Positions 1,901 through 48,303 of a DNA stretch of 64,000 nucleotides are shown in pieces; position 1 is the first letter of the stretch; the number at the start of each line of letters is the position of its first letter. Under the pieces are notes generated by a model. It was not told the origin of the DNA. It ran no database searches and saw nothing but the letters and a program-made list of their open reading frames with translations. Both the position numbers and the translations under genes were made by a program. Source of the stretch: Gautieria morchelliformis (lineage: Eukaryota > Basidiomycota > Agaricomycetes > Gomphales > Gomphaceae); contig WHVA01000184.1 of the NCBI GenBank assembly GCA_015179125.1, positions 1 to 64,000 of the forward strand, written 5' to 3'.

Positions 1901-2733
1901 ATGGACGACTCATCCCATTTGACAATGAACATCGACTTCCTGGGCCCTATGCCGGCGACTACGACATCAGGCCCCTCCCTAATCAGTCTGGATTGTCTTG
2001 GTATTTTACTCATCGACACATACTCTCTTACCGATGGAGACATTGCCCCCAGCAGTACATACCTTGCAGCACCACACAAAACAACAATTAACCATACACG
2101 CCTCAACTCTACTGCAGCCCCCGCATTCACCATCCATTCGTCACTGGTCAGTCGCCCATCTAGTGTCCTGCGTCGCTAGTCATCATGACACTGATGACAC
2201 ATGCAGAACACTACGGTTCATTCCATGGCTCCACCACAAGCGTCCGCCCAACCTCTCCTTCCTCCGTCTGAGTTTCCTCAGCACACCTTCAGCCAGGTCG
2301 GCACCTTCACCAGCTTGTCCGACCTGAAAATTTACATCAACGATGAAGGCAACACGTACCACCGCTGTGCATATCCAAACTGTTCGGACAAGGCTCGCTT
2401 CCCCAGCAAGAGACACGCGATCTCCCACATTCGTCGTGTCCACCTTAAAGAAAAGCCCTTTATATGCAGCTGGTATGTCGATCCCGTGTGTGAGCCTGAC
2501 ACACTTACAGTCTCTACAGCGGGAAGGTGTATGCATATGCCCAGGATGCGCAACGCCACGTTGATACGAAGAACCAGGGCCGTATTCACCAATGCAGCAT
2601 CTGGTGAGTACATTCTCCCAATTCTATTCCTGCACAGGTAGTCAATGCGTCAGTCTCCAGTAACAAGCGGTATGCCCGCCAGGACTACCGAGACCTACAC
2701 GAGAAGCGCTGCGTTCTGAAAGAGCGGGTCTGA
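1901..2733 (+). CDS. Z-A: three-finger zinc-finger protein, 222 aa, four exons
   Basis: Exons 1901-2146, 2207-2472, 2520-2603 and 2661-2733 join in frame to 223 codons including TGA. The introns of 60, 47 and 57 bp begin GTCAGT, GTATGT and GTGAGT and end in CAG. The N-terminus is acidic and hydrophobic (MDDSSHLTM..). Then comes a Pro/Gln-rich stretch, finger 1 (C-x4-C-x14-H-x4-H), a linker-like LKEKPF, a degenerate second finger split by intron 2, and a clean C-x2-C-x12-H-x3-C finger split by intron 3. The protein is probably nuclear and nucleic-acid binding; the target is unknown. Exon 2 is 9 nt shorter than in most copies (IIK before NDEG is lost), which keeps frame. The gene is convergent with the SAM gene at 2906-3978. 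I do not recognise a named orthologue. Confidence 0.75.
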
Positions 2734-2744
2734 AATTCGGCTTG

Positions 2745-3120
2745 CGCAATTTGATCATGACCATGTATGGATTCTGTATCACAACCATGTAGGACTAACG
2801 GTGTGCTTGAGCAATAAATATCAAGTATTTTACTGCCATTGGCCGCGAAGATAACTGGAAAGAAATATGTGGAAATAACTGGATGAAAGCGAGAATGACA
2901 GCGCTCTACAACTCACTCACTAAATTCCAGGTAAGGAAAAATTTAGCGTCTACTGCATTAAGAATAATAAGTAACAATAGTATGATCGAGGGATGTACCT
3001 GCGGATAGGTTTGAAGGCGATAGCGGCGTACTGCGCCGTGTGAACTATAAGCGCCATGGATGCCACCCTCGACGCTTTTGACCTCGCTCTCTGTTCTTTG
3101 GGCCACTTGGGCCTTTACGC
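2745..3120. repeat. block S, shared spacer after Z genes
   Basis: About 370 bp following Z-A recur after Z-C (18480-18830), Z-D (37590-38160), Z-E (41745-42110) and Z-F (44310-44830). Shorter or diverged versions follow Z-B (7800-7915) and Z-G (48370-48720). The block contains an AT-rich ATAAATAT tract just after each Z stop, a likely poly(A) region. It overlaps the 3' end of the convergent SAM gene. Confidence 0.8.
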
Positions 3121-3978
3121 ACTAGGTTTATACACGTAACGGAGCAGCTTACCTTGATTTCTTTCGTGGATGAGCTGGGAAATGTCGCGGCATGCAGAGG
3201 GGGTGGGATGGAGGGGCAGGGGTCGCCCGTTTTTAAGCGTATGGGGAGCGTGCTGGGGACGGGGGACGGGGGATCTGGAAGTGGAGTGGAGGGTCATCGC
3301 GAGCCGCTGGAGGTCGCGCTGGTTGCTGGAGGTCGCGCTGGTGCGACTTTGAGCACCTTTGGCGGAGACTCTTGAAGGTGTTCAGCATTTAGATGCGGGC
3401 ACTGATGGAGGCGATGCCCGTCTCGCCGAGGGTCTGCTGGTCGAGGTCGAGGAGAATGTCCCCGCGGATGTCGTGGTTCGCGAACGACTGGGCGTGGTGC
3501 GCGCACTTGTTGTCCGCGAGCCAGCGGGCGACGTGGCCATCATTCGACTGGCGCAGAAAGTCGAGGAAGGGCACCCCGGGCGGCGGCTCGAGGGGGTGTT
3601 CTGCAGGGGCCTCTCGGGGCGGGCTGCAGGATGGCGGGCTGCGGGGGCGACATTGAACGAGGGCGACGTCGGGGTCAAGCTATGCGGCGAGCCGCTCTCG
3701 AGGAGCGTCCCTTCCATGGAGATCATCGCGGGCGGCGAGCACGGAGAGCGTCGAGGACGTGGGAGGCAAGGTCGGCGAGGACGTGGACAACAGCGAGGGT
3801 GTCGAGGACGTGGATGACGACGAGCACGCTGAGCACGTCTCAGGTTCACGCTGCACGTCTCAGGTCCGCGATCGAGGTCGGAGACCACGGAAGCAGTCAC
3901 GCTTGTCACCAACGTGATGCTGACACTGCCAGTCGCATGTCCGCTCCTACCAGGAAGACGATTCGGAACTTGCAACAC
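2906..3978 (-). pseudogene. SAM-domain gene, copy A (broken)
   Basis: On the minus strand, 3574-3389 encodes a sterile alpha motif: HVARWLADNKCAHHAQSF, then HDIRGDILLDLDQQTL, then GIAS. This is the pattern of SAM domains in fungal MAPK-module proteins such as Ste50 and Ste11, which mediate protein-protein contacts. Compared with copy E, an AAA lysine codon after ARI has become TAA, ending the frame inside the last helix. Downstream, AATCAAG/GTAAGC near 3154 looks like a splice donor leading to a short exon and then a tail ending at 2906. The 5' part is Arg/Ser/Pro-rich in all frames and its start cannot be fixed. The gene points towards Z-A and ends about 170 bp from it. Confidence 0.6.
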
Positions 3979-4227
3979 GTCCGCTGTGCGTTTCCTCTAT
4001 CCGTGCTCGTCGTCTCAGACCGTGACTCTGAAGCGATCGCCCCGGTGTCTAGTTTAAACATTTTATCTGTTCAGGGTAAGAACGCATTTCGCCGCTGCTG
4101 TAACATTAGTGTGTTGTTACACCCAAGTTTTCTCCTCCGAAGTCGCGTCACTGGACAACCTTCTACATATGAACTCCGGCCTGTTTCCACTCTCAATGAC
4201 TGCGCTGTCTTTCCCTTGTCGCGGGCG

Positions 4228-4960: not shown

Positions 4961-5059
4961 CTCGAGTACTCCCGGCCTGGCGTCCAAGCAGCGCGTCGAG
5001 ACCTATGAACGGGTGTAGGCATGTAACTTCATATTTCATCGACCTTCAGAGGCGGCCCG

Positions 5060-5650
5060 AGCCAGGCGTAATCGTTTGGATGCTTCAGACAATACGAGAA
5101 GCGGAAAGTCTCGAGCAGCAGGATTACGTGCTCTGGAAAATTATCAAGAAGAAATCATGATATACGATTATAGTCGACTAACTCATATATGGCCCGGCAA
5201 AATTCCTCCCGCTGCGGACCATTTCGTCAGTAGGTGAAGTAAAACGAGCTAAGTTGAACTGGAGTCGCTCCGGCCGTCTGCTCACTGCAACATGCTATCC
5301 GGCGTCGACTCTATGAACACAGACCACACGCGCATGATGCACCACCAGACGCACAGCACCACCAGCACCAGACAGTGCGCCGCACGTCCCCGTCACTGTC
5401 CGCTGTCCCACTGGTCGTATCGGCCCCTTCACTCCAGGGCAGAATCCTTTGGTGTAGGGGGGCGCCGGGGAGTGCCTGGTATTTCACGTCACATACTAGC
5501 CACGGTAGACCGCTGTACGCATAGTCTGCGTCGCCTTGCTCCCTTTGGAAGCAGAGGGACATGGGCTTCTTCTCGAAAGGTTTGTCTCGATGCAAACGGT
5601 GAAGACGCGGTGACAGTATGCGGGAGCTGTAACTGTATTATAGCTTAAAG
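5060..5650 (+). pseudogene. eroded caspase-like gene block T, copy A
   Basis: Homologous to the T blocks at 8690-9340, 38690-39360 and 44930-45570. In copies D and F this block encodes the C-terminal half of a peptidase C14-like protein. Here the core with the catalytic-cysteine motif is deleted. Only flanks remain, such as the GGGCAGAATCC stretch near 5438 that in other copies reads GQNPF. A minus-strand ORF at 5595-5311 is not conserved in frame and is judged a shadow. Confidence 0.5.
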
Positions 5651-5709
5651 GGCGCACACACACCACGCCCTCTCTCGCCAACACATTCCATTGCTAAGTA
5701 TCTTTGTGC

Positions 5710-6110
5710 GTACATGTGTGCCGGTGAAATGCAACGCTATAAGGATGTACAAAATCATGCAATCATTGCCGCACCAAGTTCCTGTCCAGTAGTGGCGGGG
5801 AAGCCTCGGTGGGTTCGATCATGAAGACGAGCTAAGGTCGGGATGAATGGAAGCTGGACCTGTCCACTATGTGAGCTGCGTATCGCGAAAATGGCTGGAG
5901 TGTGCATGCCAGGGAACATCCTTTCACACTGGCTGAACAACGGCTTCAAGGTGCTGTCGACCATGCGACACCGGTTTGCAACGAGTCACGACAGGGCTTG
6001 AGAAAATCGCGGGATCTATTGCGTCCACGGCCCATACCAGTATACGGCGAGACACGGCTATCGAGACGATGCCTGAGGCCTGAGCTTGAGGCCTCAGGAT
6101 TCTTAGATAT
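5710..6110 (+). repeat. block U, copy A
   Basis: About 400 bp repeated at 9385-9760, 35760-36140, 39400-39720 and 45575-45900. In the 35.8 kb and 9.5 kb copies the plus strand contains a short conserved reading (HY-x2-DLPGNT, SHW, GFEVLST). Copy A has a small deletion that shifts it. No known domain was recognised. Confidence 0.6.
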
Positions 6111-6671
6111 GAATGCGTGGCATCCGAATCCGGTGCCGGTGAACAGTTATGGAAGGGGCGTTAATCGTGTGATTATGTAACTGCCATTCCACCTCATGAT
6201 TCCTCATCTGATTCAGGGGTCGCCCGTTATGGAAGGTGACAGTATGTAAATGGCCCGTGGCCGGGCGAGAACGAGATTTTACCTTCTGGCAATATGCAGC
6301 GCTGTGTCAAAGCAAGTTTGAGTCAGATGTGGCAGTAACACGGATCCTACGAGCCAGTCCCGTGGTATGCAGCCGGACAGGTATGCTACTCCGATCGCAC
6401 ACATTCAAAACACAATGCGCGTGTGCACACGTATAATAAGACAATAGAACTACCTTATGTAGGGGAAATGTCCGAGTCGAGGGAGACCAAAGTTGGATCC
6501 TCTCCAGTAGCATCGGAGATCGAGATTTCTTCACTCTCCATCTCCGATGCTTTGTGGCGGGGACACAGAAGGCAACCTCTTACGGTGGCTATCTCAATCT
6601 CCATCGATAGAAGCTTGAGTTTCGCAGGAAATCGGACGTGTCTGGCACGCATCATGCCCCTGACGTGTGAC
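6111..6671. other. spacer upstream of Z-B
   Basis: No gene seen. The stretch 6290-6380 resembles sequence upstream of Z-C (17070-17210), Z-D (36355-36470) and Z-G (47020-47190): a GCTGTGTCGAAGC-like start and CCAGTCCTGCAAG-like centre. It is part of the duplicated 5' flank of Z genes. Confidence 0.5.
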
Positions 6672-6740
6672 GCCGTAAATAGTTACGCGAGCTCCGACCT
6701 CACGACTCGTGAGGTAGGAGCTCGCGTAACTATTAACGGC
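6672..6740. repeat. 69-bp near-perfect palindrome
   Basis: Two 34-bp arms starting GCCGTAAATAGTTACGCGAG and ending CTATTAACGGC pair with two mismatches and a one-base centre at CACGACTCGTG. Only 3 bp separate it from the next palindrome. Confidence 0.95.
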
Positions 6741-6743
6741 GAC

Positions 6744-6794
6744 TGTACAACATAAAGAGGCTGCACTCGGAGTACAGCCTCTTTATGCTGTACA
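6744..6794. repeat. 51-bp near-perfect palindrome
   Basis: Two 25-bp arms, TGTACAACATAAAGAGGCTG.. and ..CAGCCTCTTTATGCTGTACA, pair around ACTCGGAGT with two mismatches. The 3' half resembles a hairpin terminator, but this is nuclear fungal DNA and no such role is implied. Confidence 0.95.
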
Positions 6795-6938
6795 GCGGTC
6801 GCTCTGGCAGTTGCATTACATAAGGACTCAGTATGGGATCATCATTTCGTTCCACTATTCAGTATTTAGGCAAGCAACTCAACATGGCTACCACACCCCA
6901 CACAACTCTCAGCATCATAGGCACAACTAGCGACTTTC

Positions 6939-7748
6939 ATGGACGACTCATCCCATTTGACGATGGACCTCGACTTTCTGCACTGCCTCTCAAGTATCAG
7001 TACCGACACATACTCTCCTACCGATGCAGACGTTCCTGCCTCCAATGCCCCCATCAGTACGTACCTTGCAGCACCACACAAAACAACAATTAACCATACA
7101 TGCCTCAACACTACTTCAGCCCCCGCATTCAACGTGCATTCGCCACCGGTGAGTCGTCCATCGAGTGTCCTGCGTCGCAAGTCACCACGACACTGATGTG
7201 GCATGCAGAACACTACTGTTCATTCCATGGCTCCACCACAAGCGTCGCCCCAACCTCTCCTTCCTCCTTCCGAGTTTCCCCAGCACACGTTCAGCCAGGT
7301 CGGCACCCTCACCAGCTTGTCCGACCTCAAAATTTACATCATCATCAAGACCAATGATGAAGGCAACACATACCACAGCTGTGCATATCCAAACTGTTCG
7401 CACAAGGTTCACTTCCCTAGCAGGAGGCACGTGATCTCTCATATTCGTCGTGCCCACCTTAAAGAAAAGCCCTTCATGTGCAGCTGGTATGTCGATCCCG
7501 GGTGTGAGCCTGACACACTTACAGTCTCTGCAGCGGGAAGGTGTATGCATATGCCCAGGATGCGAAACGCCACGTCGATACGAAGAACCAGGGCAAAATT
7601 CACGAATGCTGCATCTGGTGAGCGCATCCTCCCCATTCTTTTCCTACACAGTTAATCAACGTGTCTGTCTACCAGTAACAAGTGGTATGCCCGCCAGGAC
7701 TACCGAGACCAACACGAGAAGCGCTGCGTCCTGAAAGAGCGAGACTGA
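6939..7748 (+). CDS. Z-B: zinc-finger protein, 214 aa, four exons
   Basis: Exons 6939-7148, 7209-7486, 7534-7617 and 7676-7748 give 215 codons with stop. Intron 1 has the best donor of the family (GTGAGT). Exon 1 is the shortest of all copies: about two dozen residues between DLDFL and DTYS are missing or replaced, still in frame. Exon 2 is 3 nt longer than usual (an added Ile in the IIIK tract). The last finger reads C-C-I-C then NKWYARQDYRDQHEKRC, so the C-x2-C-x12-H-x3-C spacing is kept with Cys replacing Ser. In finger 1 the sequence HKVHF replaces DKARF. This is the most diverged copy that still has an open frame; the palindrome pair lies 150 bp upstream of it. Confidence 0.7.
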
Positions 7749-9340: not shown

Positions 9341-9384
9341 CATGCCCTCTCTCGCCAACACATTTTATTGCTAAGTATCTTTGT

Positions 9385-9779: not shown

Positions 9780-10283
9780 CGGGGTGACTTTGGAGAATGG
9801 GGTGCGGGACTGGGTGGGGGGCGCTCGGGGGGGAGGGAGAGAGGAAGATCACGGAGTTGCGGGCGACGTCCTTGATAGACGAGCTGGAATGGTTATGGGT
9901 ATGTATGGCCTTGCGGCCGGGGCAGGGGCGCTGGCGGGCGTTTCCGCGGATGAGCTGGAGAAGGTCGCGGGGCGCAGCCGGGGTGAGATGGGGGCGGGTG
10001 TCACCTGTTTTCTAAGCGTTTGGGCAGCGCGCTGCGGACGGAGAACGCGGATCTGGAGGTGGGTCAAAGTGGAGGGCCATCGGGAGTCGCTGGAGGTCTC
10101 GCTGGAGGTCGCGCTGGAGCACGCTGGGGGCGGGTCGAGCGGGATTTTCTGCAGGGACAGTCCACTGGCGGGTGGCGCGGGAGGGCGAGGGCGGTGATGG
10201 CAGGGAGGGCGTGGAGGGCAGCAAGGACGTGGAGGACGGGGAAGACGAGACGAAGATGTCAGAGACGTGAGCAAAGATGGTGA
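9780..10283 (-). pseudogene. SAM gene remnant, copy B
   Basis: Minus-strand GC-rich sequence matches the flanks of the SAM gene: IPLDPPPA before the domain and a CRDLSQLI-like tail after it. The whole SAM domain between them is missing. The same deletion state occurs at 39690-40079, so both remnants may descend from one deleted copy. The long minus-strand ORF 10364-9849 runs across this remnant in an Arg/Pro/Ser-rich frame and is unlikely to be a protein. Confidence 0.5.
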
Positions 10284-12114
10284 TTGATTATGTAACGGCC
10301 ACTCCATATGTCGGTGCCGATGTATCTGCCCACGGGTAGCGTTGCCAAAGATAATGCGTGGCATCCGCGGGGGTGGCCACTTGCAAGGAGGCCTTTACGA
10401 AATCGTCAATGGCAAGCATTTTCACACGGCACCGGGCGGCATGTATATTAAACACCGCCTTGTCCCGAAATAGTGGCAAGAAATTACGCGACAAAATGTA
10501 CGCGAATTAAGATTCGAGACCTTATCACGGCGCTTCGCTCCAGATTACGGTCGACGGATATCTCGATGATATTCCAAAAATAATCGGTAGGTCATCCAAC
10601 TGTTATCCAAATAACTCCATTGCGAGATTTGACTGATTGTCCAAATATAATCGACATGTCATCCCAGATGTCACCCAAATATCGCTAGCTGCTAAGAAAC
10701 TTTTACTGCGTCGGCGTCCCCGGCTGCCGCCTTGCAAATATAGTAGCGTAAAACATACAGAGTAAAATATATACACTGTTTGATAGCGACCCTGTAACGA
10801 GATGAGAGTACCATATATATGTTGCCCCAAGCTCATGGCCATGTGCTGAGCGATTTGCAGATGCAGTGGTGGAGTAGATCCAGCCACCCAATCCCCAATC
10901 GCTGTAGCTGTGACGTCGCGCTAATTTTAGACTATGTATTTCTATGTTAGTACAGTCCCCAATATACAAACTGCCTGTGCACATACCATTATTACAAGCT
11001 ATCCCCACACAGCGATTCCCAGCCTAATACAGCAAGTTGCTGAGATGGATGGGCTGGTGGGAAAGGTGGCGAGAGCGTCGGAAGAAGACAACAAAAATAT
11101 TTTAGGCACACTGGAGGCCCAAGATAAAGATTTCACGAACCTCGAGGCCCGATTCAAGTCGTTCGAGGAGCCGAGTGAGAAGATAACAAGGGCCAAATGC
11201 TTGGGAGGTGGAGAAGTTCCGGGATCTGATGAAAAGGAAGTGGATGGCAACACGGCAACACTCTGAAGGGCACGATAAAGTCAAACTTCGCAACGGGGAA
11301 CTTACCAGTATTAGCGCTCATAATATGTTCATCTTGTTTATCGCCTGGTTCACCAAATGGGAATAGCTGAGTGCGTGGTATAAATGAAGGATCTTGTCGG
11401 ATGTCTGGTGCCTCAGAGTTAGAGTCAGATTCCTCCGGTGAGCTATCAGAGACAGAAAGAAGGCTGTCCTTGAAGAGATAATGACACTGGTGGAGATTGA
11501 TGAAGACGGCTGTCCGGCGTGTTGGGTTTAAAGTTCGCAGGGACTGAAGGCGATAGTGGGGACAAAAAAGTGGAAAGACTTGTATAACAAAAATCACCTA
11601 ATAATGCCTTGAGAACAATAAGTGCTACACGAACCTCGGCTTACACTCCCCATCCCTTTCTTTCCGTGTCCACCTGGTTTGTGAGTCCGAGGGACCGGGC
11701 TCTCCAAGCGATTGCGTCAAGAACCACATTGGGTGTCAGTACAATGCATTCATGTTCTCATCTGTGAGTAATCGCGCAAATGGCTGTTGGGGAGTCGTGA
11801 GGGCAAACATTCTACTCGACTTGACTGAGAGCCAGCATCTAAGGAAGGGGTGTGAGATGTGCCTGGAGATGCGGGGGGTGGTGACTAGCATCCCTTCATA
11901 ACTAAATTCTCCGGCAACATATTGGACGTGATTAGAGTTCGCGAGCTCTGGGGCTTCAGCATCCCGCTGCAGATGCCGCTTGAATGTCCGGCTCTGCTGC
12001 CAGGGCATAACCGCCTTTTTGCATAGGGTACACGGCAGCGAAGAAGACCAAGTATTCTAAGATGACGCAATGTCAAACGGAGCCTAGCTATAGCTCAGAG
12101 CAGTGGGAGTGATG
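10284..12114. other. non-cluster spacer with one possible fragment
   Basis: No confident gene. On the minus strand at about 12040-11740 there is CTLCKK..V-x3-QQSRTFKRHLQR, which looks like a degenerate single zinc finger (C-x2-C..H), followed by about 70 unremarkable residues. It may be a fragment of a transposon-linked ORF. A serine/acidic minus-strand frame near 11500-11300 has no recognisable domain. Confidence 0.3.
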
Positions 12115-12207
12115 TGTCAGATCCTGAGTTCGAAGGTGGAATCAACGAGTAAGATTCCAACTTCGAACTCAGCCGCTATGTAGCTACTGGGAGCTGACTA
12201 ATCGACA
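12115..12207 (-). repeat. LTR of Copia 1 (3' LTR)
   Basis: TGTCAG..TCGACA, 93 bp, identical to 16447-16539. It contains a 20-bp inverted repeat: CTGAGTTCGAAGGTGGAATC pairs with GATTCCAACTTCGAACTCAG around a 9-base loop, with one mismatch. Confidence 0.95.
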
Positions 12208-15200
12208 GTAACCAGGCAATCTCCCAGTTAGAAAAGTCCCATGGCATGCCTATGCCGCTCCATCGCCTCACGGAGCAATGCCTTTGTTAAGAGGCCCGCC
12301 GGCATATCCTTCGTGGGTACGTACTTCACTTGAATTATTTTCTGTGCGACTTTCTCCCGTAACCAGAAGAATCTAAGGTCGAGGTGTTTCATACGGCCAT
12401 GGTGCTCGGGGTTTTTCGCTACGGATAAGGCGGACTGGTTGTCTATGTAGAGGTAGGACGGCTTCTCGATCTTCGAGTCGAGTTCGTCGAACAGGTTCCG
12501 TAACCACATGATTTCAGTTCCGGCTAGGGTTGCCGCTACGAACTCTGCTTCCGTTGTGGAGAGGGTGACGATGTTTTGCAGTTTGCTAGCCCAACTGATA
12601 GCTCCTGTGCCGATCTTTGTGAGGAATCCGGAGGTCGACCTGCCGTTATCTAAGTTCCCGCCGTGATCAGCATCCGTCCACGTTTGGAACGTCTCAGTCG
12701 AGTCGTTGGGGGCAAAAGTGAGTGCTAGATCCATGGTTCCTTTCAAGTAATGCAGCAGGTGCTTCACGGCCGCCCAATGGGCGGGACCGGGGTTCGAGTT
12801 GAAACAGGCAAGACATCCGACGGCATATGCGATGTCGGGGCGAGTCGCTATAGCGAGATAATTCAGCGCGCCGACTGCGTTTAGGTACGGTGTGTTCCGC
12901 ATTTCTTCGACTTCTTCTGGGGTTGATGGACCCATCGCTGAGCTCAAGTTCAGGCCAGGAGTCATGGGTGTCGAAACTGGGCGACACTCCATCATGTGAA
13001 AACGGTTTAGGATGTCTTGTATGTATTGTTTTTGGGATAGTTTCAGTGTCCTTTTCAAGCGGTTGTAGTTTACTTCCACTCCCAATAGCGATGTCATTTC
13101 TCCTAGGTCCTTCAACTTGAATATCTTGGCGAGTTCGTTCTTTACTCGGTCGAGATCCTGTTTGGAGTTCGATACTAGGGTTAGATCGTCAACGAAAACA
13201 GGGATGACAATCTTTGTGGTGCCGCTCGCCCAAATGTAAACGCTCGGGTCGGATTGGAGACGTTTGAAGCTTATGCTTTCCAGTGCGGCCCCAAGCCTCT
13301 CGTACCACAGTCTTCCGCTTTGTTTGAGACCATAGATTCCTCTCTTCAGTTTACATACCCAGTTTTCACCTCCTTGGTGGTATCCCTCCGGCTGATCCAT
13401 GTATATATTTGCATCGTCACCTAGTACTCCATTAAGATAGGCGTTCGAGATGTCTACTGACTCGATGTGCGCTCCTTGAAGTGCTCCTTGCGCCAGTATA
13501 GTACGCAAGGCGGCCCATCTCGCTGTGGGAGCAAAAACCTCGTCGTAGTCAATACCTGGCCGTTGGGTATACCCTTTTGCCACTAGACGGCTCTTGTACT
13601 TGTCCAGGGATCCGTCCGAGTGGAGCTTAATTCGGAACACCCATCTTGATCCAATGGCCTTTTCTCCCGGTGGTAGTTTTACCAGTTCCCATGTTCCATT
13701 GTTTAGAAGCGCTTGGATTTCAGTGTCTGTTGATTCTTTCCATAGTTGGCTATCGGATCGTCGCATTGCTTCTGCGAAGGTTCTTGGGACTCTGTCATCC
13801 TTGATCGTCGCATTCAGAGCTATCTCAATGGTACCTGATGATGGCATGTTGCTGCTGACAGCGATTGGTCCATCGTGGACGAATTCCAGGGCCTCGATGA
13901 TGGATGCAATTATTGCTGCACCCCCATCAGGGTCCGAATCGAGGTCTGGTGGTGGGCGTGGCCTGAAAAATGGGTCATGAAGCTGGCGGTAGTCAACTCG
14001 GGCTGTGTTCCTGCTTGAACGGCGGGGCTCGTCAATGGGCAAGTGTGGTGGTTCAGGGATTTGAGGGATGGGGAGGTTTTCGTGGTCGTCGTCGAGGGGT
14101 TCAGGGTCAGGGTTTGGATCCTGTGGTTCTTGTGCGACATCTGGAGGAGCAGTGACTTCTCTCGGGAGTGGAAACACAGGTAGGAGCGATTCTTGGTCAG
14201 TGGAGCTCGAGGTGGATAGTCCTGGGAATTCAGATTCATTGAATATGACATCCCGAGAGATGATGGTGCGTTTCGTGACAGGGTCAAGGCAGCGCCAGCC
14301 CTTGTACCCGGTTTCGAAACCGAGGTAGATACACTTTCGGGTTCTTGGTTGCAGTCCGGTCCGGTCTTCCTTCTGCACGTGGACGTAGGCCGTGCATCCA
14401 AAGGTTCGAAGCATTCCTAGATCTGGTCTTTGGCCATGCCAAGCTTTGTACGGCATCATGTTTGGGAGTGCTGAGGTTGGGTGGCGTTAACGATGCGTAC
14501 TAGCAGTTTTAGGGCGTCCCCCCACATCATTGCTGGCAGGTGAGCTTGTTGTAGTAGCGCAATTGTACCTTCAATGAGAGTACGGTTTGTGCGCTCCGAG
14601 ATCCCGTTTTGTTGTGGTGTACCTTTTGTGGTATGCTCATGGATGATACCTCGACGTTTGAAGTGCTCGTCCCATTTCTTGCCTATGTACTCCCCACCTT
14701 TGTCGTCTCTGAACCTTCTCACCCTCTCGCCCGTTTGGTTTTCAGCAAAGGCTTCGTAGGCACAGTATGCGTCGAAAGCTTCATCTTTCGTTCTCAGGAG
14801 ATACACACATCTGTATCTTGTGTGGTCATCCGTGAACGTTATCCAGTATCGATGCCCAGTCGCTGAGCGAACTGGCAGCGGCCCGTGTACGTCTGATACA
14901 ACAAGATCGAGTGGTTTCGAGGCACGGCTATCGGTCCTTTTTGGGAAAGGATTGCGGTGTTGTTTTGCAGCGATGCACGGCTCACAGATAGCTGGCAGAG
15001 TTTCCTTTGATTTTATTTGAATCCCATGGGCCATGTTGTTCTCTAACAGCTTATCCAGGCGTGCCGATCCGATGTGTGCGAGGCGTTGGTGCCATAAGGA
15101 GCGATCCTCTAGAGGCGACGATGAGGCAGTAAAGGTATGTTCTGGGTCGGGTATAGTGTTCCCAATCAGGAAACCCATACCATTCTGTACTGCTGCATAG

Positions 15201-16420
15201 AAGCGCAGGTTCCCATCTTGGAAGAACGAGATGCGGTCTCTCACAATACTGACTTGGAATTCATGATGTGTAGTGAGATGTAGGACAGCGAGCAGGTTGT
15301 TTTGGAGGGCTGGTACGTGTAAGACTTTCGAGAAAATGACATTTCGCCCTGTTCTTCCATCTATCATCGGCGCAAATAGGACCCGTCCCTTCCCGGCTGA
15401 ATACACTATCTCATTTGTTGCCAGTCGAATGGGTACGCGGTATGGCTCGTAGTCTCGAAGCCAATGATGGTGTGGCGTCATATGGCTAGTGGCACCTGTA
15501 TCAGTGTTCCAATGTAGATCAGCGTTGCTGCTGATAGGTGACGAGTGGAGGGATCGTAGACTCACGTTTCCGGCAAGTTCTTGCACTACTGGGTTTGGCA
15601 CGCTCTCTTTTGCTTGGTTCGCGTTCCGGCCGTCCTGTCTCTGTCGTGCAGGTCGAAGCTCTGGATGCGCGATCCAGCACTGGTCTGCAGAGTGGCCTTG
15701 CTTCCTGCATGCTGAGCACGTTGGAACGACGGTCTTCTTTTCTCTGGCTATGGTGAGCGCTGCTCCCGATGATGCTAGGCTTGCTTGGCGCTTCATGTCC
15801 TCGTTCCTGAAGGCAGTGGAGACGGTGGTACGATCGAGTGTGCCGATCAGGAGTAGGGATGAGGTGAACGCGCCGTACTCGGTTTGGTTGAGTCCTGCGA
15901 TAGCTGCATGGATCCCGATTTCGTCGACGATGCTCTGGACGGTGAGAGCGCTGGGTGCTAGAGCTGTGAGATCGTTCGTTGCGGCGTTTATACGGGTGAT
16001 GTACTCTGTAAGGGACTCAGGGTCCTCCTTTCGTATGTCCAGCAGTTTCTGTATTGCGTGGAATCGGCTGTTCGCCACTTGGGATCGGTGAGCCATTTTC
16101 AGTTTCTTCCACATCTCAATTGGATCGTCCATCACGCCCTCGATGTGGACCTACTGTGTGTGGGACAACGACTTCAGGAGAATACCGGCGGCTTCTTCTC
16201 TTTTCATTAACCACTTTTCTATTAGCGCTGCTTCGGTTGGCTTCTTCGAGTCTTCCGTGACTATTCGCCACGCGTTGATGGTCATCAACTTTCCTTGCAT
16301 CTCAACCGTCCACGTGTTGTAGTTGGTGCTCGTAAGTTTGATGCCTCTCGCGCGGTTCTCGGTTTCTGAGTCCGACATGATAGGAGATGGTGGTTAAGGC
16401 TCGGATGTATTCTTTTTCCT

Positions 16421-16446
16421 TCGATCAAGGCACGGGGCCCATAACC
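16421..16446 (-). other. primer-binding site of Copia 1
   Basis: Directly inside the 5' LTR the minus strand reads GGTTATGGGCCCCGTGCC. GGTTATGGGCCC is the sequence Drosophila copia and relatives use to pair with the anticodon region of initiator tRNA-Met (half-tRNA priming). Confidence 0.75.
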
Positions 16447-16539
16447 TGTCAGATCCTGAGTTCGAAGGTGGAATCAACGAGTAAGATTCCAACTTCGAAC
16501 TCAGCCGCTATGTAGCTACTGGGAGCTGACTAATCGACA
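16447..16539 (-). repeat. LTR of Copia 1 (5' LTR)
   Basis: Identical to 12115-12207, same TG..CA ends and internal hairpin. Confidence 0.95.
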
Positions 16540-23116: not shown

Positions 23117-23247
23117 AATATAATCCCGAGGGGTGAACTGATTACCGATTATAAACGCTCGTCTCTGACCTTACGACTTGTGAAGGGAGATGCAGAGTGA
23201 AGGTAAATCCTAATTGATCGTTACTACTCACAGTGGAATAACAACTG

Positions 23248-29219: not shown

Positions 29220-29379
29220 TGATGGATGTGGATGATAGTAAAGAGCAACTTGTTGTTTTTATTGGAATCGACTCGCGATGTCTCAGACAAATATACAGTA
29301 TATGTAACAACGGTAGCTACGGGATTTGGAGCGGAGCAGGATCTGGGTTGGAATGGGGTTGAGCGATGGCGTCAAGTCA
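29220..29379 (-). repeat. LTR of Copia 2 (3' LTR)
   Basis: 160 bp, TGATGG..AAGTCA; matches 35403-35552 except for ten extra bases. Confidence 0.95.
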
Positions 29380-34700: not shown

Positions 34701-34919
34701 CATCGTGGCACCATACGTGTAGACTAGGTAATCATCGCTGATGCGAAGGCTAATGGCTGCAAATGCCTGTTGGTCCTTTTTCATCCAATCTGCGATCGCC
34801 CGCTTTTCAGGGTTGGTCACATTGTCAATGTCGGCCGGCTCTGGCTTCTCTGCCCCTCCCGATGCATGTTGTAGGAATGAACGCGTAAGCATAATGGCAA
34901 ACCGCGTCACCCCGTGTCA

Positions 34920-35402
34920 CCCCATTGTGACAAAGCATGCGCAGTCTCATTGTTCTATGTTTTTCTTTGTCCAAATGTCCTTATTGTAGTAAATTCTTAT
35001 TGTTCTTTAGGAACTATAAGTAGCTAGTATTTTCTTTGCTCTACCTCAGTACTTTGCATCGAAGCAAGCACTGAGTAAGAAAAGCATTATTAGTCTCGCA
35101 TTCACTTTAGCTCATTTATACGATTTGTAGCATTATCGTATAGGTAAAATATCATAGTACTTTGCATCGAAGCAAGCACTGAGCATTATCGTATAGTTCA
35201 CATATTCTCACACGTGTTCCCAGAGATCTTGCTCAAGTAAGATCCAACGCATCTTTTCTTTCCATGCGGGGTAGTTATCTCCGGTGAGTGGTTCGATCCG
35301 GTATAACGAACTTGGCTGCGTGAGTGCGGTAGACATAGCGGTTTTAGTGATTGTTACAGAGATTTTTTTTTGTCAAGGTTTTAAAGCGCAGGGCCCATAA
35401 CC
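34920..35402 (-). other. leader and primer-binding site of Copia 2
   Basis: Next to the 5' LTR the minus strand reads GGTTATGGGCCCTGCGC (35386-35402), the same half initiator tRNA-Met primer site as Copia 1. The leader also holds two copies of AGTACTTTGCATCGAAGCAA (near 35048 and 35156). Confidence 0.75.
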
Positions 35403-35552
35403 TGATGGATGTGGATGATAGTAAAGAGCAACTTGTTGTTTTTATTGGAATCGACTCGCGATGTCTCAGACAAATATACAGTATATGTAATACGGGATTT
35501 GGAGCGGAGCAGGATCTGGGTTGGAATGGGGTTGAGCGATGGCGTCAAGTCA
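35403..35552 (-). repeat. LTR of Copia 2 (5' LTR)
   Basis: 150 bp with TG..CA ends, followed on its outer side by the target duplication ATAAT. Confidence 0.95.
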
Positions 35553-35759
35553 ATAATAATCACAACGGTAAACCTTTACACCTTCGACAAGGGTGCCGCC
35601 GGCAACGCCGGCTTCTAGTGATATATGATGTGCCCACAGAATCAGTCTAAAGCGTGATGCGTGACGTCATGTCGTGCCAGTAGCGAATGCTTCTTAGGGA
35701 GACCGCTGCGCAATGCGGCGCTCTGCTGGACGCGGCTGCCTGCTCACAGGCAGCTTGGC

Positions 35760-36668: not shown

Positions 36669-37534
36669 ATGGACGATTCATCGCTTTTGACAATGGACCT
36701 CGATGACTTCCTGGGCCCCATGCGGGCGACTGTTAGAGCTACCCATACGACACCATGCCCCTGCATCTCAAGCATCAGTCTGGATTGTCTTGGTATTTCA
36801 CTCGCCGACACATACTCTCTTACTGATGCAAACATTGCTGCCTCCAATGGCCCCATCAGTACGTACCTTGCAGCACCACACAACACAAAAATTAACCATA
36901 CATACCTCAACCCTACTGCAGCCCCCGCATTCGCCACCGGTGAGTCGTCCATCTAGTGTCCTGTGTCGCTGTCATCACGACACTGATGTGGCATGCAGAA
37001 CACTACTGTTCATTCCATGGCACCACCACAAGCGTCGGCCCAACCTCTCCTTCCTCCGTCCCAGTTTCCCCAGCACACCTTCAGCCAGGTCGGCACCTTC
37101 ACCAGCTTTTCCGACCTCGAAATTTACATCATCAAGACCAACGATGATCGCAACACATACCACAGCTGTGCATATCCAAACTGTTCGGACAAGGCTCGCT
37201 TCCCTAACAAGAGACATGCGATCTCTCACATTCGTCGTGTCCACCTTAAAGAGAAGCCCTTTATATGCAGCTGGTATGTAGATGCAGAGTGTGAGCCTGG
37301 CACACTTACAGTGTCTACAGCGGGAAGGTGTATGCTTACGCCCAGGATGCGAAACGCCACGTCGATACAAAGAACCAGGGCAAAATCCACGAATGCAGCA
37401 TCTGGTGAGCACATTCTCCCCATTCTGTTCCCGCACAGTTAGTCAACGTGTCAGTCTCCAGTAACAAGCGGTATGCCCGCCAGGACTACCGAGACCAACA
37501 CGAGAAGCACTGCGTCCTGAAAGAGAGGGACTGA
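36669..37534 (+). pseudogene. Z-D: zinc-finger gene with frameshift in exon 1
   Basis: Same four-exon layout: exon 1 36669-36939, exon 2 from 36999, and all splice sites with GT-AG. Exon 1 lacks 11 bp just before the donor. Where other copies read GCATTC-x11-GCCACTG, this one goes straight from CATTC to GCCACCG; the deleted segment ends in the same CATTC, as expected for slippage between direct repeats. The shift moves exon 2 into a frame that stops within about 50 codons, before all zinc fingers. Exons 2-4 themselves remain open and well conserved, so the damage looks recent. Translation from ATG at 36993 (MQNTTV) inside the intron/exon border could still give the finger domain. Confidence 0.7.
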
Positions 37535-39720: not shown

Positions 39721-40079
39721 ATGGGTACGGGTACGGCCTTGCGGCTGGGGCAGGGCGGGCGTTTTCGCGGATGAGCTGGGGAAGGTCGCAGGACGCAGGA
39801 GGGGTGAGATGGAGGGGCGGGGGTCGCCCGTTTCCTAAGTGTGGGCAGCGCGCTGCGGACGCGGGACGGGGGATCCGGAGGTGGGTCAAAGTGGAGGGCC
39901 ATCGGGAGTGGCTGGAGGTGGCGCTGGAGCACGCTGGGGGCGGGTCGAGAGGGATGTTCTGGAGGGACAGTCCACTGGCTGCAGTGGAGGGCGAGGACGT
40001 GGAGGGCAGCGAGGACGTGGAGGAAGCCGAGACGAAGACGGGAGAGACAGACACGAGCAAAGATAACATGATTATGTAA
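39690..40079 (-). pseudogene. SAM gene remnant, copy D
   Basis: Minus-strand flanks of the SAM gene joined without the domain: QNIPLDPPPA then directly the HSRWPSTL tail. Same deletion type as 9780-10283. A tail reading LPQLIREN matches LSQLIHER of copies A and E. Confidence 0.5.
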
Positions 40080-40801
40080 CGGCCACTCCTGGCATGACGC
40101 TCCGCAGGAGGTTCTTTCTGGAAAGTGTGCATGGCAGCCAGGCCAGGTTCACGGGCGCTGCATGCTCACGAGACCCGCGCCCGCGCCACTACTCTATCGG
40201 TCCCGATGCATCTACCATGGCATCCGATTCAGCCAGGTATGGAAGGCTTTAGAGGAGGGCCGTCTTGGCGTGTTGTTGCCGGGATTGTTGCCGGTGACCG
40301 GTGACCCGGTGTTGATGCCGGTTCGCGCCCCGATCTGGCAGTGACAATAGTGACAATGATCATGTACTATGCGCTGGACAGGGGCATCATGCGTGCCAGA
40401 CAATTGCCATTGCATTACATAAGGGGAGAGAACAACTTCCCAGTGTGCACAACTTCAAAGATTGCCTCAAAGCCTTATAAATATAGGATTCACTATTATG
40501 TGCTGTAGCCTACTTGGACTAAATTTTTGAGCTAATAGAACACATAGTGGGACTTGCAGGGTGTTGGTTTCAGACTCCTTTCACACGCTCGCTAATAATA
40601 GCCACCATAACGGGGCTGGCAGTGCTGGAAGTTGAGATGACCTACTGTGCGTGACGTTATGTACGGAAAGCGGAAAAAAAAGGTGTGCGCGCCAATATTG
40701 AAAGTGCAATACCGACTCAGGTGTTTAAGAGAGCAACTCAACATGGCTACCACTCACACCCCGAACAACTCTCACTGTCCTGGGTACAACTCGCGACTTT
40801 C
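40080..40801. other. upstream region of Z-E
   Basis: No gene seen. Contains the upstream block shared with Z-A (40460-40612) and the TATA-like GTTTAAGA at 40723. Confidence 0.5.
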
Positions 40802-41675
40802 ATGGACGACTCCTCCCATTTTACAATAGACCTCGACTTCCTGGGCCCCATGCGGACGACTGTTGTAGCTACCCATATGACACCAGGCCCCTGCCTCTCA
40901 AGTATCAGTCTGGATTGTCTTGATATTTTACTCGCCAACACATACTCTCTTACTGATGCAAACATTGCTGCCTCCAATGGCCCCATCAGTACGTACCTTG
41001 CAGCACCACACAACAGAAAAATTAACCATACATACCTCAACGCTACTGCAGCCCCCGCATTCACCATGCATTCGCCACTGGTGAGTCGTCCATCTAGTGT
41101 CCTGCGTCGCTGTCATCACGACACTGATGTGGCATGCAGAACACTACTGTTCATTCCATGGCACCACCACAAGCGTCGGCCCAACCTCTCCTTCCTCCGT
41201 CCCAGTTTCCCCAGCACACCTTCAGCCAGGTCGGCACCTTCACCAGCTTTTCCGACCTCGAAATTTACATCATCAAGACCAACGATGAAAGCAACACATA
41301 CCACAGCTGTGCATATCCAAACTGTTCGGACAAGGCTCGCTTCCCTAGCAAGAGACATGCGATCTCTCACATTCGTCGTGTCCACCTCAAAGAAAAGCCC
41401 TTCATGTGCAGCTGGTATGTCCATCCCCGGTGTGAGCCCGACATACTTACAGTCTCTACAGCGGGAAGGTGTATGCATATGCCCAGGATGCGAAACGCCA
41501 CATCGATACGAAGAACCAGGGCCGTATTCACGAATGCAGCATCTGGTGAGTACATTCTCCCAATTCTATTCCTGCACAGGTAGTCAATGCGTCAGTCTCC
41601 AGTAACAAGCGGTATGCCCGCCAGGACTACCGAGACCTACACGAGAAGCGCTGCATTCTGAAAGAGCGGGTCTGA
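40802..41675 (+). CDS. Z-E: zinc-finger protein, 236 aa, four exons (reference copy)
   Basis: Exons 40802-41080, 41140-41414, 41462-41545 and 41603-41675 give 237 codons with stop. Introns are 59, 47 and 57 bp, with donors GTGAGT, GTATGT and GTGAGT. Residues 1-93 are acidic/hydrophobic and Ser/Thr-rich. 94-140 are Pro/Gln-rich. Finger 1 uses C150, C155, H170 and H175. The linker LKEKPF recalls the TGEKP linker of C2H2 proteins. Finger 2 is atypical (C183-x-C185, H198). Finger 3 is C210-x2-C213-x12-H226-x3-C230. Introns 2 and 3 cut the second cysteine codons of fingers 2 and 3. An in-frame upstream extension to 40685 exists in this copy only and is not conserved. Role: probable DNA/RNA-binding regulator; the target is unknown. 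Convergent with SAM copy E. Confidence 0.8.
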
Positions 41676-42072: not shown

Positions 42073-42782
42073 TTACACGCTAGGTTTATACACGTGACGG
42101 AGCAGCGTACCTTGATTTCTTTCATGGATGAGCTGGGAAAGGTCGCGGCATGCAGAGGGGGTGGGACGGAGGGGCGAGGGTCGCCCGTTGTTAAACGTAT
42201 GGGGAGCGTGCTGGGGACGGGGGACGGTGGATCTGGAGCTCAAAGTGGAGGGCCATCGCGAGCCGCTGGAGGTCGCGCTGGTTGCTGGAGGTCGCGCTGG
42301 TGCGACTCTGAGCACCTTTGGGGGAGGCTCTTGAAGGTGTTCAGCATTTTTATGCGGTCACCGAGGGAGGCGATGCCAATCTCCCGGAGAGTCTGCTGGT
42401 CGAGGTCGGGGAGAATGTCCCCGCGGATGTCGTGATTCGCGAACAACTGGGTGTGGTGTGCGCACTTGTTGTCCGCGAGCCAGCGGGCGACGTGGCCGTC
42501 GTTCCACCGGCGCAGATAGTCGAGGAAGGGCATGCCGGCCGGCGGGTCGAGGGGGATGTTCTGCAGGGGCCTCTCGGGGCGGGCAGCGCGCTGGCGGGCG
42601 GCGGGGGCGAGAATGAACGCGACGTCGGCGTCGATCTGTGCGGCGAGCCGCTCTCGAGGAGCGTCCCTTCCATCAAGATCATCGCGGGCAGCGAGCACGA
42701 AGAAGAGCGTCGAGGACGTGGATGACGACGAGCACGCTGAGCACGTCTCAGCCGTGGTCCGCGATCGAGGTCGGAGACACAA
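42073..42782 (-). CDS. SAM-domain protein, copy E (best preserved)
   Basis: One minus-strand frame, 42782-42240, gives up to 180 residues. The SAM domain is at about 95-157: GHVARWLADNKCAHH, FANHDIRGDILPDLDQQTL, REIGIASLGDRIKMLNTFKS. It keeps the hydrophobic pattern of the five helices and the usual GI-x3-G-x-R near the end helix. The N-terminal 70 residues are Ser/Arg/Ala-rich and may be partly noncoding; an internal Met at residue 84 (MPFLDYL) is an alternative start. The frame closes at DGPPL. A separate minus frame to 42073 (CRDLSQLIHERNQG followed by a GTACGC donor) could be a further exon. SAM domains mediate homo- or hetero-oligomerisation. The match to Ste50/Ste11-type SAM is by eye. 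Confidence 0.55.
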
Positions 42783-42849
42783 CGGAAGCAGTCAGCTTGT
42801 CACAAACGTGATGCTGACACAGTCGCAGTCACCATGAAGACGACTCGGA

Positions 42850-43370: not shown

Positions 43371-44252
43371 ATGGACGATTCATCCCTTTTGACAATGGAC
43401 CTCGGTGACTTCCTGGGCCCCATGCGGGCGACTGTTAGAGCTACCCAGACGACACCATGCCCCTGCCTCTCAAGCATCAGCCTGGATTGTCTTCGTATTT
43501 CACTCACCGACACATACTCTCTTACCGATGGAGACATTGCTGCCTTCAATGCCCCCACGGAGGCCATCAATACGTACCTTGCAGCACCACACAAAACGAC
43601 AATTAACCATACACCCCTCAACACTACTTCAGCCCCAGCATTCATCATCCATTCATCACTGGTCAGTCGTCCATCTAGTGTCCTGCGTCCCTAGTCACCA
43701 TGACAATGGCATGCAGAACACTACTGTTCATTCCATGACTCCACCACAAGCGTTGGGCCAACCTCTCCTTCCTCCATCCGAGTTTCCTCAGCACACGTTC
43801 AGCCAGGTCGGCACTCTCACAAGCTTCTCCGACCTGAAAATTTACATCATCAAGACCAATGATGAAGGCAACACATACCATCGCTGCGCATATCCAAACT
43901 GTTCGGACAAGGGCCGCTTCCCTAGCAAGAGACACGCGATCTCTCACATTCGTCGTGTCCACATTAAAGAAAAGCCCTTCATGTGCAGCTGGTATGTCCA
44001 TCCCCGGTGTGAGCCTGACATACTAACAGTTTCTACAGCGGGAAGATGTATGCATATGCCCAGGATGCGAAACGCCACGTCGATACGAAGAACCAGGGCC
44101 GTATTCATGAATGCAGCATCTGGTGAGTACATTCTCCCCATTCTGTTCCTGCACAGTTAGTCAATGCGTCAGTCTCCAGTAACAAGCGGTATGCCCGCCA
44201 GGACTATCGAGACCTACACGAGAAGTGCTGCATCCTGAAAGAGCGGGTCTGA
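43371..44252 (+). CDS. Z-F: zinc-finger protein, 240 aa, four exons
   Basis: Exons 43371-43661, 43717-43991, 44039-44122 and 44180-44252 give 241 codons with stop. Intron 1 is the shortest (55 bp; GTCAGT donor). Exon 1 carries an in-frame addition shared only with Z-G (PTEA before I-x-TY), and both read MDDSSLLTMDLG, so F and G are sister copies. Finger 1 has DKGRF in place of DKARF, and the linker reads IKEKPF. The long unspliced plus frame from 43405 to 44160 only partly overlaps the true protein. TATA-like TATTTAAG at 43290. Intact by inspection. Confidence 0.77.
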
Positions 44253-45514: not shown

Positions 45515-45574
45515 CCACGGTACATCGCTATACATACACTTGTGTAGCCCTTCCGAAGCAGAGGGACTAATGTA

Positions 45575-45900: not shown

Positions 45901-46371
45901 TCAGGGATGAATGGGTATGGGCATGGCCGGGGGAGGCACGCTGCTGGGCGTTTTCGCGGATGAGCTGGGAAATGTCGCGGGACGCAGAGGTGATGGGTGG
46001 AGAGGCGGGGCACGCCAGGTTTTTAAGCGTACGGTGAGCGTGCTGCGGACGGGGCACGGTGGATCTGGAGGTGGCTCCAAGAGGGTCACGGGTGTGACTG
46101 GAGGTCGCGCTGGTGCAACTCTGAGCACCTTTGGCGGAGGCTCTTGAAGAGTTCAGCATTTGATGCGGTCACCGACGGAGGCGATGCCCATCTCGCGAAG
46201 GGCTCTGCTGGTCGAAGTCGGGAAGAATTTCGGCGGAGATGTTCCACTGTCGCGTTGAGGGAGGTGAGGGCAGCGAGGACGTGGAGGACGTGGAAGACGA
46301 GACGAAGACGGAGCAAAGATAACGTTATTAACCGCGTGATTATGTAACGGGCACTTCACACGGTGATGCAT
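45901..46371 (-). pseudogene. SAM gene remnant, copy F
   Basis: Retains only the last SAM helices (REMGIASVGDRIK) and the tail (RDISQLIREN), with a deletion of the N-terminal part of the domain. This deletion differs from that in the 9.8 and 39.7 kb remnants. Confidence 0.5.
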
Positions 46372-47343
46372 GAACGTTTGAACCGGTACCGGTACATACG
46401 TGGGTTCAATTTATATAGTGCCCTGGATATTTCTTAGCGAAGAAGCTAGCCATAATGCATAAGTATCGGCTTTACATGTCGGCATCCAAACAAGGCACTG
46501 CAGCACAACATCCTCCCAGTATCCTTCGACCAGACGCGCCTCGACCTCCGGCACATGCACAACCGTTGAAACGTACGTAGGAAGCTGGATGTATATCTCC
46601 CAAGACACCGTGCTCACTAGACATGCACACACGGGAATTTGTAACCTACGAGCCGGCCGACGCTCCTTACGCTTCTTCGATCAGGCCAATAGACTCTGCA
46701 TGCTCCCATTCTTCCAATACCTGGACCATATTTTACAATGTTCCGCGGTCCCACCACGGCGCACACTGCGGGTGCCTTGCGGCTCATCACTATATGTCGG
46801 CCCCGACTCGGAGTCCCAATTACTTGGCGGTTGGGCAAGCTTAAAGTTAAAATGCCCTGGATGACTGCGTCATGCGATGCAGCAATTATGTATGCACTAA
46901 CATAGCTCCTGTGCTCGCGTCAGAAGTACACTACGCCAAGCTATGGAAATGTGTATAGGCTCATCATCCATTACGGCAGGAGTTCGCGCTGGCGGTCGAT
47001 TTTACCTTCCCCGCGCGCAATTTGGCAGCAAGCAACGTTTAGTGCTACAACTAATGTATAACCATGTGTCAAGTATCCCTACAGTAACACGGGTCCCTAG
47101 GCCCTACGAGCCAGTCCTGCAAGTGCTTCAGCTACGCGCAGGAGACGTGGGTTGGAATCCTGCCGGACTGAGCCATTGCAGGTACGTAGGTATGCAGCTG
47201 AGTGCCAGGGGCATCATGTGTACACGACCGAGTTTCGGAGTTTCTATACCTATAATTGACCTCCCTCTTTGGAAAAGCTGTTCAGTACATAAGGTTATGC
47301 ACGGAGGATGGGTTCCCACACTGTTTCAGTCCAGACCGATTCA
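46372..47343. other. spacer upstream of Z-G
   Basis: No supported gene; short frames near 46600-46860 have no recognisable features. The Z-type upstream block recurs at 47020-47190, and the TATA-like ATTTAAG is at 47345. Confidence 0.5.
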
Positions 47344-47425
47344 TGGATTTAAGCAAGCAACTCAACATGGCTACCACTCATTCCTCGCACAACTCTCACC
47401 GTCCTAGGTACAACTCGCGACTTTC

Positions 47426-48303
47426 ATGGACGATTCATCCCTTTTGACAATGGACCTCGGTTACTTCCTGGGCCCCATGCGGGCGACTGTTAGAGCTACC
47501 CATACGACGCCATTCCCCTGCCTCTCAAGCATCAGTCTGGATGGTCTTGGTATTTCACTCACCGACACATACTCTCTTACCGATGGAGACATTGCTGCCT
47601 CCAATGCCCCCACGGAGGCCATCAGTACGTACCTTGCAGCACCACACAACACAACAATTAACCATACACCCCTCAACTCTACTGCAGCCCCCGCATTCAC
47701 CATGCATTCGCCACTGGTGAGTCGTCCATCTAGTGTCCTGCGTCGCTAGTCACCACGACACTGATGTGGCATGCAGAACACTACTGTTCATTCCATGGCT
47801 CCACCACAAGCGTCGGGCCTTCCTCCATCCGAGTCTCCCCAGCACACGTTCAGCCAGGCCGGCACCCTCACCAGCTTGTCCGACCTGAAAATTTACATCA
47901 TCAAGATCAATGATCAAGGCAACACATACCACCGCTGTGCATATCCAAACTGTTCGGACAAGGCTCGCTTCCCTAGCAAGAGACACGCGATCTCTCACAT
48001 TCGTCGTGTCCATCTTAAAGAAAAGCCGTTCATATGCAGCTGGTAAGCCGATCCCGGATGTGAGTGTGACCGACTTACAGTATTTACAGCGGGAAGATGT
48101 ATGCATATGCCCAGGGTGCGAAACGCCACGTCGATACGAAGAACCAGGGTAGAATCCACGAATGCAACATCTGGCGAGTACAGTCTCCCAATTCTGTTCC
48201 TGCACAGTTAGTCAATGCGTCAGTCTCCAGTAACAAGCGGTATGCCCGTCAGGACTACCGAGACCAGCACGAGAAGTGCTGCCTCCTGAAAGAGGGCGAC
48301 TGA
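47426..48303 (+). CDS. Z-G: zinc-finger protein, 237 aa, four exons
   Basis: Exons 47426-47716, 47777-48042, 48090-48173 and 48231-48303 give 238 codons with stop. Two splice oddities: intron 2 has GTAAGC instead of GTATGT, and intron 3 starts GCGAGT, so it would be a GC-AG intron, a minor but functional class in fungi. Exon 2 lacks 9 nt in the Pro-rich part (QASGLPPSES) yet stays in frame. The last finger ends HEKCC. It shares the PTEA addition with Z-F. It is the last cluster member; a diverged S block follows, then the MFS gene on the same strand. Confidence 0.72.

Follow-up and report, generated by a model that had tools for sequence, protein, structure and literature searches.

We have analysed a 64,000-nt stretch of the Gautieria morchelliformis genome (assembly GCA_015179125.1, contig WHVA01000184.1, positions 1 to 64,000; hereafter the window). 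It holds an array of seven zinc-finger gene copies, ZA to ZG, all on the + strand between positions 1901 and 48303 (Table 1). Four exons are common to all seven, and once spliced every copy but ZD reads without interruption from ATG to TGA. An initial annotation had proposed a four-exon, seven-copy family here, with every copy open except ZD, which lacks 11 bp; its end points were exact, and its count of copies and its account of the frames both hold.

Gene structure and the encoded protein

Exon 1 measures 246, 210, 264, 271, 279, 291 and 291 nt from ZA to ZG and exon 2 266, 278, 275, 275, 275, 275 and 266 nt, and exon 4 is 73 nt in all copies; the lengths first noted for these three exons are reproduced. 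A constant 84 nt had been given for exon 3, which is right for the second of two possible acceptors of intron 2 and wrong for the first: in every copy the first AG yields 93 nt and the second, 9 nt further on, yields 84 nt, with the frame kept either way. The second AG is more likely to be the acceptor, because the 9-nt stretch varies at four of nine positions among the seven copies yet always ends in CAG, because intron 2 is then 47 nt and not 38 nt, and because finger 2 then becomes C-x1-C-x12-H, with the usual x12 spacing. Introns are GT-AG in all copies except for intron 3 of ZG, which is GC-AG. The ATG of exon 1 is present in all seven copies. The 11-bp deletion of ZD lies in exon 1 and the full frame is broken in exon 2, with exons 2 to 4 still open when read in the frame that the other six use; ZD would be either a pseudogene or the source of a shorter protein made from an exon 2 methionine.

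No eighth copy was found in the window by tblastn at E up to 1, and no RNA family at gathering scores. Relatives were not found in viral contigs, searched with one protein and with a six-protein alignment, or in prokaryote genome contigs, two collections that are not fungal and say little. A coding reading from an ATG near -60 in the 5' leader was rejected, as leader gaps between copies measure 1, 2, 2, 3, 4, 4 and 7 nt and do not keep the frame.

Read by eye in the translations of the seven copies, the ligands are C-x4-C-x14-H-x4-H in finger 1, C-x1-C-x12-H with a lysine at the usual fourth-ligand place in finger 2, and C-x2-C-x12-H-x3-C in finger 3. The zinc-ligand positions are invariant across copies and are those first described, including the degenerate middle finger. 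None of the three fingers fits the canonical motif C-X2,4-C-X12-H-X3,4,5-H, and we file the protein as C2H2-like, not as a canonical C2H2 member. A KEKPF linker joins fingers 1 and 2. In phmmer searches of PDB chains, residues ~146-230 hit C2H2 arrays whose structures are solved, with whole-sequence E values of 1.9e-12 for ZNF568, ~6e-9 for ZBTB7A, 6.3e-8 for KLF5 and ~1e-5 for forms of Zif268. A profile built from six sequences finds much the same structures (best E 1.9e-10). The pairwise alignment with Zif268, in which 23 of 70 residues are identical, covers half of finger 1 together with fingers 2 and 3 and is interrupted by two gaps of one residue each. The arrangement had been said to match no family that could be named, which fails for the class, given these C2H2 arrays of solved structure, and stands for the curated Pfam zinc-finger models, all of which fall below cut-off.

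Predicted base contacts (positions -1, 2, 3 and 6 of the three helices, assigned by us from the canonical frame) are identical in all seven copies at 9 of 12 places. One position varies in each finger: S/N in finger 1, where ZD has N; D/G in finger 2, where ZG has G; and L/Q in finger 3, where ZB, ZD and ZG have Q. No KRAB or other effector domain was found with Pfam at E up to 1, a search that listed seven families for six proteins and in which HMMER filters drop most weak matches. The N-terminus opens with a D/L/F-rich stretch, MDDSS-LTMDLDFLGPM, which to our impression resembles an acidic activation motif.

Selection and maintenance of the frame

Exons 2 to 4 are under purifying selection. 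By a purpose-written codon likelihood with F3X4 frequencies, omega (dN/dS) for exons 2 to 4 of all seven copies is 0.307 (2dlnL 30.6 against omega = 1). It is 0.26 in exon 2 before the fingers (2dlnL 13.5), 0.35 from the fingers to the end (2dlnL 11.7) and 0.58 over all exons of the six open copies (2dlnL 9.7). A tree-free check, pooled pN/pS with a codon bootstrap, gives 0.32 for exons 2 to 4 (95% confidence interval (CI) 0.21-0.48), and agrees with the likelihood values despite mosaicism among the copies. Variable columns in these exons fall 21/17/43 on the three codon positions. Branch values of omega for exons 2 to 4 are 0.09 in ZA, 0.21 in ZC, 0.32 in ZD, 0.27 in ZE, 0.26 in ZF, 0.40 in ZG and 0.87 in ZB. 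Copies differ pairwise by a mean of 0.073-0.078 within exons 2 to 4 and 0.096 within exon 1; the values for introns, leader and 3' flank are 0.098-0.169, 0.124 and 0.183, respectively.

Insertions and deletions point the same way. Gap blocks are divisible by three in 10 of 11 cases in the exons (exon 1, 7/8; exon 2, 3/3; exons 3 and 4 gap-free). These counts vary with the alignment chosen; a 45-nt gap in ZB overlaps one of 15 nt in ZA and ZC. In the non-exon parts of the same alignment the fraction is 3 of 22, and when flank alignments are pooled it is 8 of 44 (Fisher p 1.4e-5 against the exons), a pool of five of six aligned pairs in which stretches of ZA and ZE recur, so that its indels are not fully independent; the A-F pair was left out as reusing stretches, and gives 8/50 when included. 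The many out-of-frame indels that had been noted in the spacers, as opposed to the exons, are thus borne out. When the ZE coding sequence was evolved in a simple neutral simulation, with copies independent and all substitutions equally likely, 5.7% of 4000 runs retained an open frame at 0.03 substitutions per site, and fewer did so at higher divergence.

Additionally, the array carries its own control. A SAM-domain stretch was co-duplicated on the - strand of the array units, and shows how unguarded coding sequence looks in this array. Its long frame is kept in the ZE unit only, as a bare open stretch; the segments of the ZA and ZC units are decayed, and the ZF unit holds a remnant. The ZB (~9895-10305) and ZD (~39721-40089) units, with surrounding DNA alike, hold a nine-residue piece only (tblastn E 1.6 and 0.45, not significant singly), and because tblastn gives just this piece, the domain in these two units would have been deleted or never complete. 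No SAM segment was seen after ZG.

We consider it probable, from sequence comparison, that these small C2H2-type genes form a lineage-restricted family amplified in tandem; each would probably be transcribed on its own and serve as a nuclear regulator that binds DNA. The genes are likely live, and the family seems lineage-restricted because its copies are tandem and alike. DNA would be bound via fingers 1 and 3, the middle finger being short of one ligand. As 9 of the 12 predicted contacts are shared by all copies, these probably read much the same site and would differ in their N-terminal regions and in the timing of expression.

Several results weigh against this reading. No constraint on residues is seen in exon 1 (omega 1.41, 2dlnL 1.7, not significant; tree-free pN/pS 0.96, CI 0.58-1.80). 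The ZB branch is indistinguishable from neutral in exons 2 to 4, and the ZE and ZG branches singly fail to reject omega = 1 (2dlnL 1.21 and 2.75). Mosaicism means that no one tree fits all columns, which makes the likelihood figures approximate. No AATAAA was found within 200 bp of the stop in ZE, ZF or ZG. At the protein level, no Pfam zinc-finger model reaches its cut-off in the six intact proteins (best E per model 0.0012-0.033; bit scores listed for ZE), and taken one stretch at a time the phmmer matches to solved structures reach an E of only 0.0019.

Some of these points would also fit a recently dead family, in which the constraint is that of the ancestral gene and the copies now drift as pseudogenes. 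It would account for the broken ZD, the branch values of ZB, ZE and ZG, the neutral look of exon 1, and a ZG with a GC donor and a different 3' flank. However, internal branches make up just 13% of tree length among the six open copies, so most change lies on single-copy branches, and omega = 1 is rejected at about the 5% level or better on four of the seven (2dlnL 14.4 in ZA, 5.8 in ZF, 4.0 in ZD and 3.84 in ZC; exons 2 to 4, uncorrected). Six open frames are also very unlikely under the neutral simulation, and the co-duplicated SAM segments did decay. We regard a dead family as unlikely.

A shade less probable still is that the array is live with exon 1 as a noncoding leader and a start at the exon 2 methionine (HSM-A/T-PPQ). 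The near-neutral pN/pS of exon 1, its flat distribution of variable columns over codon positions (21/22/23), and a ZD copy whose exon 1 frame is lost yet whose branch omega in exons 2 to 4 remains low would all fit; a frame kept in seven of eight exon 1 gap blocks, open in six of seven copies and headed by an ATG in every one would not. Avoidance of stop codons in exon 1 is uninformative by itself (0.8 nonsense changes expected, 0 seen).

Because the gap blocks keep frame while pN/pS is close to neutral, exon 1 looks free in its residues and bound in its frame, which fits a loose N-terminus ahead of the domain that matters. The coding constraint first proposed, and the dN/dS check suggested for it, therefore divide along the gene: constraint stands for exons 2 to 4, finger half included, by both measures, and in exon 1, where dN/dS is near 1, it stands by frame and not by residues.

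Within the reading of a live regulator family, we can entertain one further and rather speculative suggestion. The regulators may share a DNA-reading end while their N-termini run free and their upstream promoters have been exchanged. Paralogues differing in effector region and timing would then compete for common sites, and ZD, whose exons 2 to 4 remain constrained although its exon 1 frame is lost, would be a natural fingers-only competitor.

Origin of the array and its surroundings

The spacers share segments in one orientation and in largely the same order. ZA, ZC and ZE have similar 3' flanks over 1.0-1.4 kb, and a different set of segments is common to the 3' flanks of ZB, ZD and ZF. Since the flanks form these two sets, the unit by which the array grew may have comprised two genes; against a strict unit of this kind, the ZA-ZB spacer shares 5042-6059 with the ZB-ZC spacer. 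The 3' flank of ZG differs from those of the other copies. We suggest that unequal crossing over of a gene-plus-spacer unit would have produced the array, that gene conversion would have shifted stretches between copies, and that transposons may later have broken it up.

Tables of identity show the copies to be mosaic. In intron 3 ZE does not differ from ZA or ZC, but in intron 1 its likeness to them is 85% and 90%, respectively; ZD and ZE are 98-99% alike in intron 1 and early exon 2, against 79% in intron 2. Maximum-chi-square tests (105 run, 400 permutations each) list 18 cases, all at the permutation floor; these are uncorrected, and in any that involve ZG its different 3' flank acts as a confounder, a further caution for the favoured reading.

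Upstream homology is limited in 18 of 21 copy pairs to the last 70-102 bp before the ATG, beginning at or near a TATA-like TATTTA box. It is longer in ZA-ZE (~355 bp), ZA-ZG (126 bp) and ZB-ZG (132 bp), and ZC-ZG, ZD-ZG and ZC-ZD have extra weak, separate matches further upstream. The box lies at -80 in ZA, -76 in ZB, -78 in ZC, -70 in ZD and -80 in ZF, and was not found as such in ZE and ZG. AATAAA follows the stop at +80 in ZA, +74 in ZB, +96 in ZC and +80 in ZD. Upstream of ZB, 144-268 bp before its ATG, stand two adjoining near-perfect hairpins (6671-6795), with arms of 35 and 26 nt and a single nucleotide separating the arms. The sole other inverted repeat in the window (22 nt or more, arms within 400 bp) is a palindrome at 60367-60402.

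That the gene is transposable-element cargo, its copies being insertions and not tandem duplicates, is very unlikely: for all the Copia, Helitron-like and hAT parts nearby and the left boundary near -80 common to most copy pairs, the seven copies lie in one orientation, their spacers are co-duplicated, ZA and ZE are alike for ~355 bp upstream, and none of the 14 inverted self-matches in the window (E up to 1e-3) brackets a copy. The 400-bp hairpin search could not reveal terminal repeats around a whole unit, and a separate search of 900-bp flanks was made; the longest exact inverted match is 0-11 nt in all seven genes, no longer than in shuffles, target-site duplications and longer elements not being searched for. 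The single orientation and the lack of inverted flank matches beyond shuffles are what make cargo improbable.

Two Copia elements and a Helitron-like element lie in the ZB-ZC and ZC-ZD spacers. The Copia element of the ZB-ZC spacer, by its 99% identical end repeats, suggests recent insertion. In the second, 29446-30384 resembles the rest of pol by eye, with no Pfam match, and 30523-31153, which separates it from the recognised pol, recurs inverted at 55321-55953. The ZC-ZD spacer also holds a tandem repeat with a unit of ~17 bp, taken from self-match offsets, at 20758-20994. Degraded pieces of array spacer are seen beyond ZG within 48407-51163 (48407-48504, 48647-48717 and 50926-51163), and because they persist there the array may once have extended further right. 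Outside the array, a cluster of inverted matches occupies 53347-62469, its largest pair (884 columns, 90% alike) joining 53905-54782 and 60427-61277.

Table 1. Features of the array and its surroundings (window positions)
Feature	Position	Strand	Details
ZA gene	1901-2733	+	ATG to stop; exons 1901-2146, 2207-2472, 2520-2603, 2661-2733; open, 222 aa; exon 3 from second acceptor
ZB gene	6939-7748	+	exons 6939-7148, 7209-7486, 7534-7617, 7676-7748; open, 214 aa
ZC gene	17539-18400	+	exons 17539-17802, 17865-18139, 18187-18270, 18328-18400; open, 231 aa
ZD gene	36669-37534	+	exons 36669-36939 (with 11-bp deletion), 36999-37273, 37321-37404, 37462-37534
ZE gene	40802-41675	+	exons 40802-41080, 41140-41414, 41462-41545, 41603-41675; open, 236 aa
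ZF gene	43371-44252	+	exons 43371-43661, 43717-43991, 44039-44122, 44180-44252; open, 240 aa
ZG gene	47426-48303	+	exons 47426-47716, 47777-48042, 48090-48173, 48231-48303; open, 237 aa
TATA-like box TATTTA, ZA	1821-1826	+	80 bp before ATG
AATAAA, ZA	2813-2818	+	80 bp past stop
SAM-domain ORF stretch, ZE unit	42240-42791	-	PF07647, E 2.1e-12; open over 183 codons; best preserved; bare open reading frame (ORF) stretch, not a gene model
SAM segment, ZA unit	3284-3883	-	decayed; three in-frame stops, one locally shifted stretch
SAM segment, ZC unit	18960-19604	-	decayed; frame changes; C-terminal domain part alone reads in frame
SAM remnant, ZF unit	46098-46243	-	pieces in three frames
Copia element	12115-16545	-	in ZB-ZC spacer; 99-bp end repeats 99% identical (12115-12212, 16447-16545)
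Second Copia element	29220-35555	-	end repeats 94% alike (29220-29382, 35403-35555); gag 34119-34916, pol 31736-33730
Helitron-like element	23242-28787	+	in pieces: DUF6570, Helitron_like_N, PIF1 helicase
hAT transposase C-terminal dimerisation part	78-398		window left edge; PF05699, E 7.2e-5

Relation to known zinc-finger systems

The array is a clear single-window case of selection made visible through indels: the gene frame is kept in six of seven copies, and the co-duplicated SAM neighbour is mostly decayed. The gene family is otherwise ordinary biology. Like the Krueppel-type C2H2 factors KLF4/5, Zif268/EGR1, ZNF568 and ZBTB7A, whose two- and three-finger arrays they match, the array proteins have a KEKPF linker; unlike canonical C2H2 factors, they have odd ligand spacing in all three fingers and score below cut-off with Pfam C2H2 models. 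The BIRD/IDD plant factors have a four-finger array. Of that group, only the model of the third finger was listed for the array proteins, below its cut-off (best E 0.0012, 19 bits against 27), and membership was rejected.

In its available parts, a survey of basidiomycetes reports 1032 C2H2 genes in 30 species, with clade-specific expansions, tandem C2H2 duplicates in wood decayers, and Ka/Ks <1 in all syntenic clusters (PMC12295980). The array resembles the families described there in its tandem duplication and purifying selection. The same parts state that the survey used PF00096 and discarded proteins lacking the canonical C-X2,4-C-X12-H-X3,4,5-H (PMC12295980). Because none of the three fingers fits that motif, by our reading this type of array would fall outside the survey, and no array of the kind is named in the parts available. 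Surveys based on the canonical motif would miss such proteins, and regulator counts in such fungi may therefore be low. Neither the array nor the family was found named in the literature searched, a scope outside which most subscription journals lie.

Mammalian KRAB zinc-finger genes lie in clusters. The parts available of two reports link these families, as lineage-specific C2H2 genes, with transposons (PMC4592553, PMC7289599), and to that extent the array is similar, being a C2H2-type family near transposons. In contrast to KRAB clusters, the array proteins are without a detected KRAB or effector domain, have three fingers only, and have predicted contact residues that are conserved and not diversified. 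Membership of a KRAB-type transposon-control cluster was rejected on the missing effector match and on the nine predicted contacts identical in every copy. The protein class is known and the mode of amplification common, and it is the ligand spacing that is unusual.

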